Of a DNA stretch of 64,000 nucleotides, positions 25,348 to 27,720 are shown in pieces. Made by a program: the position numbers and the translations under genes. The DNA is taken from contig NC_010530.1 in the NCBI RefSeq assembly GCF_000069785.1, positions 800,001-864,000 of the forward strand, in the 5' to 3' direction. The DNA is from Cupriavidus taiwanensis LMG 19424. Its GTDB lineage: Bacteria; Pseudomonadota; Gammaproteobacteria; Burkholderiales; Burkholderiaceae. The notes below the pieces were generated by a model. It made no database searches and was not told where the DNA came from. It saw only the letters and a list, made by a program, of their open reading frames with translations. The stretch's first letter is position 1. Each line of letters begins with the position of its first letter.

Positions 25348-26451
25348 TCAGCCGCGCGCCAGCGCAGACAGCGGACCGGGCGCGGGATGCGCGCTGGCCC
25401 GCGCGTCGGCCACGCGCGCCGCGGCGTCGTCCAGTTGCGCCAGCGTGCCGGCATCGATCGCGATCTGCTGTGCGCGCGCTGCGCGGCAGGCGCGCTCGGG
25501 TTCGCCGGGCAAGTGGATGCCGTGCTGGCCGGGCTGCAGCCGCGCGCTTTTCATCCAGTCGGCGAAGGCCGCGACTTCATGCCCGAACGAGGTGCTGGTG
25601 CCCAGCCGCGCCGGATCGAACACGATCGCCAGCATGTTGTTCCAGACCGCATGCTCGTGCCGCAGCGTTTCCGGACGGATGGTATGGCCGCCCGTGACCG
25701 CGGCCCCTAGCAGCTCGCACATCACCGCCAGCACATGGCCCTTGTGCTCGCCGAAGGGCCGCAAGGCCCCCTGCGGCGTGCCGGCGGGCGGGTACATCAC
25801 GGCCGCATCGGTGGTGGGCCCGCCCTGCGCATCGAGCAGGCTGCCGGCGGCCACCGGTACGCCCTTGTTGTGGGCCACGCGCACCTTGCCCAGCGCGATG
25901 GCGCTGGTGGCAAAGTCCAGCACCAGCGGCGCCTCGCCGTCCATCGGCACGCCGATGGTGAACGGGTTGGTGCCGTAGCGCGCGTCGTAGCCACCGTGGG
26001 GCGCAACGATCGGCTTGGACAGCACGTTGACGAAGTGGATCGAGATCATGCCCGCGGCCGTGGCCTGCTCGGCCCAGTGGCCGACCCGCCCGAGGTGGTG
26101 CGACTGTCGCAGCCCCATCACGCAGACACCGTGCTCGCGCGCGCGGGCAATGGCCATCTCCATGGCTTGCGCCGTCACCGCCTGCCCCATGCCGCGGTTG
26201 CCGTCCAGGCTGAGCAGGCTGCCGGCGTCCTGCAGCACGCTGACCCGCTGGTTCAGCTGCAGCTCGTTCGCCTGCCACGCCAGCACATAGCGCGGGATCA
26301 TGCCAACGCCGTGGGAGTCATGTCCGCTCAGGTTGGCGCCGACCAGGTGGTCGGCCGTCAGTTGCGCTTCCTGTGCGGTGCTGCCGGCGGCAAGCCAGAG
26401 ATCGGTCACCCACTGGTGCAGCGCGCGGGTGGGAATGCGGGATTCGCTCAT
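25348..26451 (-). CDS. Ldh-family (malate/L-lactate type) NAD(P)-dependent oxidoreductase
   Basis: 367 residues of the LDH2/MDG2 family, unrelated to classical lactate dehydrogenase. Signature NLSGHDSHGVGMIPRYVLAW near residue 44 holds the catalytic His; also MGLRQSHHLGRVGHWAEQAT, GTNPFTIGVP and GEHKGHVLAVMCELLGAAVT. Members act on ureidoglycolate, sulfolactate, malate or imino acids. Start MSESRIPT is used because the preceding codons overlap a terminator. The gene lies between the GlxR-like reductase and an SOS-boxed small gene; co-transcription with the former is plausible (73 bp apart). Confidence 0.9.
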   Translation of the reverse strand: MSESRIPTRALHQWVTDLWLAAGSTAQEAQLTADHLVGANLSGHDSHGVGMIPRYVLAWQANELQLNQRVSVLQDAGSLLSLDGNRGMGQAVTAQAMEMAIARAREHGVCVMGLRQSHHLGRVGHWAEQATAAGMISIHFVNVLSKPIVAPHGGYDARYGTNPFTIGVPMDGEAPLVLDFATSAIALGKVRVAHNKGVPVAAGSLLDAQGGPTTDAAVMYPPAGTPQGALRPFGEHKGHVLAVMCELLGAAVTGGHTIRPETLRHEHAVWNNMLAIVFDPARLGTSTSFGHEVAAFADWMKSARLQPGQHGIHLPGEPERACRAARAQQIAIDAGTLAQLDDAAARVADARASAHPAPGPLSALARG

Positions 26452-26486
26452 GTCGGCCTTGTAGGAATGGATACGCTGCGGAGCAA

Positions 26487-26520
26487 AAAGCCCCGTGCCG
26501 TGTGACGGCAACGGGGCTTT
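26487..26520 (-). terminator. Rho-independent terminator after the SOS-boxed gene
   Basis: Strong hairpin AAAGCCCCGTGCCG / CGGCAACGGGGCTTT with a short loop. On the minus strand it ends in TTTTT. It separates the 94-residue gene from the Ldh-family gene. Confidence 0.8.
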
Positions 26521-26576: not shown

Positions 26577-26861
26577 CTACTGCCGCGGCGCTTCGTGGGA
26601 CGGGGCCTTTGCCAGGATTTCGCGGATGCGGGCCAGGTAGGTGTCGCCGACCGCGCGGTGCATGCGCGCCGTCTCGGCGGCGAACTGGCGCCGGCTGGGC
26701 GGGCGGATGCCCAGGCTGCGGCAGATCGTGGACAGATAGGGCTTGCGCGGACCAGCCAGGCGCTGCGCCACGCTCTGCAGCGCGGCGTCGCCAATGCGGC
26801 CGCGCAGCCAGGCAAGTACCTGGCGGTCATAGTCGTTTTGCACGCGGATCAGGTGTTCCAT
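26577..26861 (-). CDS. Uncharacterised 94-residue protein under a LexA box
   Basis: Begins MEHLIRVQNDYDRQVLAWLR; the ATG at 26861 follows GGAG by 7 nt, while an upstream in-frame ATG at 26885 has none. Mostly helical and basic: GRIGDAALQSVAQRLAGPRK, PYLSTICRSLGIRPPSRRQF, AVGDTYLARIREILAKAPS. No membrane segment, signal peptide or known motif. Its promoter region holds a near-consensus SOS box (26891-26910) and a terminator follows, so it is an independent damage-inducible unit. It could be a small checkpoint or repair accessory protein; no homologue is recognised. Confidence 0.8.
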   Translation of the reverse strand: MEHLIRVQNDYDRQVLAWLRGRIGDAALQSVAQRLAGPRKPYLSTICRSLGIRPPSRRQFAAETARMHRAVGDTYLARIREILAKAPSHEAPRQ

Positions 26862-26890
26862 GCCGGGACTCCACTGTTCATCCATACAGG

Positions 26891-26910
26891 TACTGTAAAT
26901 ATATACAGTA
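26891..26910. promoter_or_regulatory. LexA-binding SOS box
   Basis: TACTGTAAATATATACAGTA matches CTGT-N8-ACAG exactly and differs at one position from the ideal E. coli box (TACTGTATATATATACAGTA). It lies 30 bp upstream of the start of the 94-residue gene and is the only such box I found in the window. Confidence 0.88.
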
Positions 26911-26964
26911 TTCGGCTGGAGGCAAGAAAAATCCGGCCCGACAGGGTACGACGCCCGGCTGCCG

Positions 26965-27720
26965 TTATGTGTGGGTCGCGTTCAGAGGATGCCTGGTGCC
27001 AGTGCCGTCGCCCGATACCAGCGGCAGCACCGCATCGCGCTTCTCCAGCAGGTGGCGCTTCAGCACTGCCGCGAGCCGCTTGCCGTCGCGGGATTCCAGG
27101 GCCCGGATCATCTCTTCATGGTCTTCGACTGCCTCGTCCCATTTGCCGCTTTGCTGGTTGGAGCGAAAGCGCAGGGCCTGCAGGCGGCGGTTGATCGACT
27201 GGTAGGTATGGCGCAGCGCCCCGTTGCGTGCGGCTTCGTTGATGCGGTCGTGGATCTCCTGGTTGCGGCTGTAGTAGCCCGGCAAGTCGTTTTGGGCGCG
27301 ACAGGCCAGCATCGCATAGTGCAGCGCCTTGATCTGCGCAAGTTCCGCCGCGGTGATGCGCTCGCAGGCCAGTTCGCCGGAAAACGCCTCCAGCCCGCTC
27401 ATCAGCTCGAAGCTCTCCCTGACTTCGGCCTCGCTCATGCGCGAGATGCTCGCGCCGCGGTTGGGCAACAGGTCGATCAGGCCCTCTGCCGCCAGTACCT
27501 TGAGCGCCTCGCGCAGCGGCGTGCGCGAGATGCCGAGGGTCTCGCACAGCTCGCGTTCATTGAGCTTGGTGCCCGGCGCGAATATGCCTTCGACGATGAA
27601 CTGGCGCAGGTGCTCGACCACGGTGTCATGCAGGCGCGGGCGTTCCAGGCGCGGCAGCGATGGCGGTGGAACGTGCTGGGCAACGCCTGCCGCCTGATCA
27701 TCGCTATCTGATTTTTGCAT
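26965..27720 (-). CDS. GntR-family regulator, FCD subfamily
   Basis: 251 residues. DNA-binding domain at residues about 30-95 (HDTVVEHLRQFIVEGIFAPG, LNERELCETLGISRTPLREA, AAEGLIDLLPNRGASISRM). An all-helical FCD ligand domain follows (105-230), with the metal-binding residues suggested by NQEIHDRINEAARN and DHEEMIRALESRD. FCD regulators respond to small organic acids. It is divergent from the aminotransferase/oxidoreductase/Tct operon, and a TTGCATTCAA box lies at both its own start codon and the operon promoter, so it is the probable local regulator. Confidence 0.92.
   Translation of the reverse strand: MQKSDSDDQAAGVAQHVPPPSLPRLERPRLHDTVVEHLRQFIVEGIFAPGTKLNERELCETLGISRTPLREALKVLAAEGLIDLLPNRGASISRMSEAEVRESFELMSGLEAFSGELACERITAAELAQIKALHYAMLACRAQNDLPGYYSRNQEIHDRINEAARNGALRHTYQSINRRLQALRFRSNQQSGKWDEAVEDHEEMIRALESRDGKRLAAVLKRHLLEKRDAVLPLVSGDGTGTRHPLNATHT

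Follow-up and report, generated by a model that had tools for sequence, protein, structure and literature searches.

A small gene of Cupriavidus taiwanensis behind a conserved double LexA box, with clamp-like tags in part of its family

Background

In E. coli the SOS response has been mapped in detail, but some clade-specific SOS genes have no function assigned. The closest described counterpart of the gene considered here comes from a 2012 study of the LexA regulon in multi-chromosome bacteria, which put forward two hypothetical beta-proteobacterial genes as possibly LexA regulated (PMC3323433). One of them, hypA, is described in the sections of that study that deal with it as having no homologues outside the multi-chromosome beta-proteobacteria, the species set including C. 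taiwanensis, R. eutropha, R. metallidurans, R. pickettii and Burkholderia (PMC3323433). In the same group of bacteria, expression of the imuA2B2C2 operon of pRalta, which is preceded by the same kind of box as the gene described below, depended on LexA, according to the relevant part of its published account (PMC4151985).

A gene of 94 residues in a 64,000-nucleotide stretch of the C. taiwanensis genome (the window) is probably hypA: like hypA as sketched in the sections dealing with it, it encodes a hypothetical protein, is predicted to be LexA controlled and belongs to a species set that includes C. taiwanensis (PMC3323433). It also has tandem boxes, relatives with clamp-like tags and relatives on plasmids, features that do not appear in those sections.

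The gene and its double operator

The window is part of a 2,502,411-bp contig in a genome of three contigs. The gene is flanked by a putative GntR-type regulator gene (26965-27720) on one side and a putative dehydrogenase gene (start near 26449) on the other, and has the following features:

26485..26518, minus strand: intrinsic terminator, a GC-rich hairpin followed by a U run (folding; -27.2 kcal/mol, z -5.13)
26577..26861, minus strand: protein-coding gene, 94 residues plus stop, 94 codons at 26580-26861, MEHLIRVQNDYDRQ...EAPRQ (reading frame, alignment, dN/dS and structure prediction)
26869..26872, minus strand: Shine-Dalgarno-like GGAG, 7 bp before the ATG (sequence)
26874..26889, no strand assigned: LexA box 2, minus-strand sequence CTGTATGGATGAACAG, just before the Shine-Dalgarno-like sequence and 19 bp downstream of box 1 (exact CTGT-N8-ACAG)
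26893..26908, no strand assigned: LexA (SOS) box 1, minus-strand core CTGTATATATTTACAG, extended form at 26891-26910 (identical in the window and 23/23 named relatives)
26898..26903, minus strand: predicted -10 element TATATT, within LexA box 1 and 16 bp from the -35 element (promoter scan)
26920..26925, minus strand: predicted -35 element TTGCCT, with a CTTG core invariant in 24/24 sequences (promoter scan and alignment)

The original prediction placed a box with a CTGT-N8-ACAG core, one mismatch from the ideal LexA site, 30 bp from the gene, and both statements are borne out: TACTGTAAATATATACAGTA at 26891-26910 has one mismatch to the ideal 20-mer TACTGTATATATATACAGTA, and the ATG is at 26861. 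This is the sole match with up to three mismatches in the window, and none was found in 100 shuffles. The prediction took the operator to be single, overlooking a second exact box at 26874-26889, so the operator is in fact double; boxes 1 and 2 are the only exact CTGT-N8-ACAG cores in the window. Both are situated between the -35 element and the start codon, box 1 overlapping the predicted -10 element, so that, as expected of a member of the LexA regulon, the operator lies over the predicted promoter. A promoter scan of 561 bases found one further promoter-like pair besides TTGCCT-16-TATATT, against a shuffle mean of 0.1.

The 94-residue frame that had been proposed is upheld by its aligned start, which is ATG in 22 of the 23 named relatives (GTG in L008), and by dN/dS values of 0.105-0.213 in the 10 of 23 relatives compared, which indicate purifying selection on the frame. 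L024 has a short in-frame duplication at that position of the start. An alternative start giving 102 residues was rejected, being out of register in relatives and located inside box 2, the distance of which to the gene differs between species. The predicted terminator after the gene corresponds to the hairpin at 26485-26518 with its U run; a strict pattern scan of the gene region listed no terminator, perhaps because this hairpin contains a bulge. A fixed-neighbour operon was also considered and rejected, as none of the genes flanking 23 representative loci (about 2 kb on each side) occupies the same position in different genera.

Conservation of the operator

A profile of 23 sequences found relatives of the gene in 132 of 299 Burkholderiaceae genomes, representing 9 of 25 genera; within the same genus, 39 of 40 genomes have it. 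All 141 places in these 132 genomes were examined for boxes between -160 and +15 of the start, fragments being counted along with intact copies. An exact box is present at 123/141 places and in 121/132 genomes, a conserved box in most homologues being what the original prediction named as support, and two exact boxes are present at 64/141 places. When up to one mismatch is allowed, 129/141 places have at least one box and 110/141 have at least two; L183 and L184 are scored here as misses despite one-mismatch boxes, seen by eye, just outside the stretch searched. The spacing of the 64 exact pairs is 19 bp in 47, 18 bp in 11 and 20 bp in 6. Control windows of equal size, shifted by 400-1600 bp, contain a box in 2 of 595 cases and in none around the 23 named relatives, and the difference from 123/141 places supports the interpretation of the locus as an SOS unit.

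Both boxes are present in 23/23 of the named GTDB relatives. When the 24 sequences are aligned on box 1, they agree in every one of its 16 columns, while the upstream DNA averages 52% identity; the full invariance of box 1 may be due to its being read by both LexA and RNA polymerase.

An exact box is missing from 11 genomes, of which 8 carry a one-mismatch box (G083, G187, G034, G093, G068 and G106, and also G273 and G126, where it is slightly further upstream) and 3 have none (G219, G260 and G177, the genes of the latter two being fragments). Counted by place, 10/141 have no box with up to one mismatch near the gene; these include second copies, a plasmid-like copy and fragments, as well as the sole copy found in G219. 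Second copies in G213, G290 and G254 (L113, L199 and L203) have no SOS box, and the other copy in each genome has one. A relative from a genome titled Ralstonia sp. 25mfcol4.1 (L014) groups within Cupriavidus by this gene, possibly a naming issue. The labels Ralstonia-like and Burkholderia-like, as used below, are tentative assignments from similarity.

The LexA regulon of the same genome

The genome encodes a LexA that presumably reads this motif: the gene behind tandem boxes at C1:1922280 matches LexA_DNA_bind and Peptidase_S24. Among the exact cores of the genome, the only close pairs are those at this lexA gene and at the 94-residue gene. The two promoters are thus alike in having two adjacent boxes, with a spacing of 20 bp at lexA and 19 bp at the 94-residue gene, whereas the 94-residue product is unrelated to LexA.

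Exact cores number 35 genome-wide and a reversed control pattern occurs 24 times, which means that an isolated core is often due to chance. This count is what could be said for a chance box or a non-functional reading frame at the present locus, an explanation that is contradicted by the conservation of the box, the shifted-window control and the dN/dS values, and that has a vanishingly small likelihood. The gene is almost certainly under LexA control, a conclusion that rests on conservation.

Several other genes of C. taiwanensis are found near exact boxes. Three of them match UvrD helicase, DEAD_2 helicase and UvrA (L040, L051 and L052, respectively); their boxes are AT-rich, and the DEAD_2 helicase gene is presumably DinG/YoaA-like. 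A gene with a BRO N-terminal domain (L046, 936-1844), which we take to be phage-antirepressor-like, starts beside an exact box. Three small genes right behind AT-rich boxes (G000:C1:1305515-1305772, C1:1505736-1505981 and C3:1038191-1038481) have no Pfam match or are weakly zinc-ribbon-like, and are present in 4, 5 and 3 of 60 family genomes, respectively. Box-bearing imuA genes occur on the 557-kb and 2.5-Mb contigs, the former agreeing with the location given for pRalta in the relevant part of its published account (PMC4151985).

The presence of imuA genes beside SOS boxes is one of the observations that would fit a modulator of RecA, LexA or the ImuA-ImuB-DnaE2 mutasome, acting in polymerase switching or curbing the duration of the SOS response. 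A precedent for such modulation exists in E. coli, in small SOS proteins such as DinI, and the clamp-like tags described below would suit a polymerase-switch factor. However, ImuA-like matches in 291/299 family genomes (221 over the curated cut-off) are too widespread for co-occurrence to be informative, and no gene-neighbourhood link was found in 23 loci; a modulator of this kind is improbable.

A basic, helical protein without database matches

With 17 K/R and 8 D/E among its 94 residues and a pI of 11.3, the protein is basic. Its predicted model (mean pLDDT 83.4, pTM 0.61) has helices at 10-23, 25-35, 43-50 and 57-85 and a low-confidence end, so that the predicted fold has three short helices and then a long one at the C-terminus. 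The structure prediction and the order and class searches were based on a 44-row alignment, a hand-picked subset of the loci; a separate alignment excluded L021, in which the C-terminal frame looks shifted.

No model in Pfam, NCBIfam, PHROG or PADLOC matches the 94-residue protein, and even at E 1 any one Pfam model matches at most 2 of 44 relatives; weak Pfam matches in one or two of these 44, such as DUF3967 (0.0079) and HolB_lid (0.01), were set aside. Foldseek gave no match at E <= 0.001 in PDB (4 listed) or BFVD (21 listed), the listed ones being at chance level, as were VpsR (E 0.34) and BGFP-C (E 0.68) in a sequence profile search of PDB. A defence or phage gene was rejected for lack of a PADLOC or PHROG match. 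One peptide pattern found 42 stretches in viral contigs, none of them a relative by tblastn, and a single phage match (E 0.03), within ribonucleotide reductase, was taken as chance.

A damage-induced inhibitor of cell division that replaces SulA, blocking septation until repair is done, might be envisaged, since no SulA (PF03846) is found in this genome at E <= 0.1 and the tandem boxes would imply the tight repression expected of a growth inhibitor. This remains rather improbable: neither Pfam nor NCBIfam matches the protein to SulA or to a division protein, the absence of SulA concerns the one genome checked, and the clamp-like tags of relatives point to replication instead.

Distribution and plasmid relatives

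In the class sample 1/369 genomes matched, which is the C. taiwanensis genome itself, and in the order sample 11/399 matched, 5 of them in the family and 6 outside it (L132, a clear relative, and five weak matches). Four of the five weak matches, each from a different genome of a single genus, are to the C-terminal HTH of one response regulator; at about 20 bits (E 2e-4 for one genome) they are not significant over 399 genomes, and were noted without being relied on.

Distant relatives exist on plasmids of Neisseria and Deefgea, where they are called cryptic plasmid protein A. By tblastn these match the window protein at E 4e-3 to 5e-3, and with L094 as the query the values are 1e-13 for Deefgea and about 2e-8 for Neisseria. 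The resemblance is in size and in a core of DRR..AWL, then A...RKPY.. and K.L; we know of no function for cryptic plasmid protein A. The Deefgea relative directly follows a replication initiation gene. The two cryptic plasmid protein A copies checked differ from the C. taiwanensis gene in that the 250 bp upstream of them contain no box, even when one mismatch is allowed. Relatives are also found on Paraburkholderia and Burkholderia plasmids, and both of the copies checked (L139 and L140) have exact boxes. For cryptic plasmid protein A of the Neisseria and Deefgea plasmids (H1 and H37), the SOS gene appears to be a chromosomal relative.

These plasmid relatives, including the Deefgea copy after a replication initiation gene, offer some support for a different explanation, namely a LexA-controlled HTH-type DNA-binding protein derived from, or shared with, plasmid replication and maintenance genes, which would act as a regulator near origins or promoters and for which the tags would be incidental. 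The protein is basic, predicted helices 25-35 and 43-50 are spaced as in a loose helix-turn-helix, and the family profile weakly matches the response-regulator C-terminal HTH in the four genomes mentioned above. On the other hand, this match is not significant at the scale of the sample, no HTH family in Pfam and no fold at E <= 0.001 is matched, and the clamp-like tags would be left unexplained; an HTH-type regulator is accordingly judged unlikely.

The distribution also bears on the identity of the gene with hypA. Relatives in 132/299 family genomes, 1/369 class genomes and, in the order sample, 6 genomes outside the family (one clear, five weak), together with distant plasmid relatives in Neisseria, may be set beside the narrow range given for hypA. 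In the first 60 family genomes (G000-G059) the 94-residue gene is present in 18, and the other three small box-bearing genes in 4, 3 and 5, the first count coming from a profile and the others from less sensitive single-protein queries; on these counts the other three fit hypA less well, and the 94-residue gene is the best candidate for hypA, as characterised in the relevant sections of the 2012 study, among the four box-bearing genes compared (PMC3323433). The original prediction that the gene is not a known SOS member is thus correct insofar as no paper listed in searches of the open literature was recognised as assigning a function to it, but it probably is the gene that the same sections predicted to be LexA regulated in 2012 (PMC3323433).

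Clamp-like tags

Proteins that bind the beta clamp do so through a published motif, QL[S/D]LF, in which positions 1, 4 and 5 are stated, in the part of the source concerned, to be the most important (PMC3919608). Similar motifs, comparable to this one and to the hexameric forms in Hda, end part of the present gene family. Among 44 distinct Cupriavidus tails, drawn from 136 rows without identical proteins, 20 contain QxxLF or QxxLxF, as QGSLF, QASLF, QTSLF, QGSLPF, QPALPF and similar variants, whereas shuffled tails have a mean of 0.2 and a maximum of 3. In 14 of the 20 the motif is at the very C-terminus, on tails of 10-41 residues; the tagged tails as a whole range from 10 to 50 residues and are otherwise dissimilar between sub-clades, closer relatives sharing more. 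These clamp-like tags in part of the family are new in this analysis.

The window protein and its necator-like clade have no QxxLF or QxxLxF tag. The Ralstonia-like relatives and all but two of the Burkholderia-like ones are likewise without one, and such a C-terminal motif was found only in Cupriavidus, one looser match elsewhere (L202) being within the core. Because the tag is missing from the window protein and most relatives, the family can do without it. In the gene tree, as few as 2 changes account for the C-terminal tag, which is absent from the window's clade; this implies few events rather than 20 independent ones. This tree has 129 rows and leaves out L021, L058, L199, L209-L212, rows of fewer than 74 residues and rows identical to another in the whole protein or in its first 84 residues.

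The two Burkholderia-like exceptions have the motif at the opposite end. L183 starts with MHQGSLFK and L184 with MQQGSLFK, these being the only 2 of 141 places where the 40 codons preceding the core hold the motif. L184 has GCG in place of the ancestral start codon, so its N-terminal extension is very probably used. The two lie close together in the tree, with most of their new upstream DNA in common, and the extension therefore probably arose in one event. Their SOS boxes (in G273 and G126) are mismatched and further upstream, an insertion apparently having separated the operator from the gene. Chance can hardly account for a common core that bears this motif at its C-terminus in some lineages and at its N-terminus in others, and the pattern suggests that the family may work at the sliding clamp or replication fork; in the window protein, which has no motif, any action at the fork would have to be by way of the core.

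Proposed role and significance

There is about an even chance that the gene encodes a stand-alone, tightly repressed, basic, helical SOS protein that acts at replication forks; the fork role itself is putative and somewhat short of an even prospect. In healthy cells, LexA dimers on the two adjacent boxes would cover the -10 element and the predicted transcription start, and the gene would therefore be tightly shut. Upon damage, RecA filaments would trigger cleavage of LexA, allowing synthesis of a short mRNA that ends at the hairpin and is translated into a basic, helical protein of about 94 residues, which may slow or reorganise replication at damaged forks or on DNA. In many Cupriavidus, and by a separate route in two Burkholderia-like species, a QxxLF-type tag would tether the protein to the sliding clamp DnaN; in tagless lineages, including that of the window, the core would act without it.

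A broader proposal, more doubtful than the fork role, is that the gene represents an unrecognised family of small SOS-induced proteins that board the clamp or fork after damage, with a tag gained or lost at either end: a replication checkpoint or polymerase-switch factor of Burkholderiaceae, kin of "cryptic" plasmid proteins, and perhaps standing in place of SulA (checked in this genome only).

The SOS operator of this gene is strictly kept across several genera of Burkholderiaceae, in a double-box layout shared with lexA of the same genome. The clamp-like tags offer a first concrete hypothesis of function, DnaN binding, for a gene probably flagged in 2012. If this hypothesis is true, the SOS response of a large bacterial family would gain an arm directed at replication.
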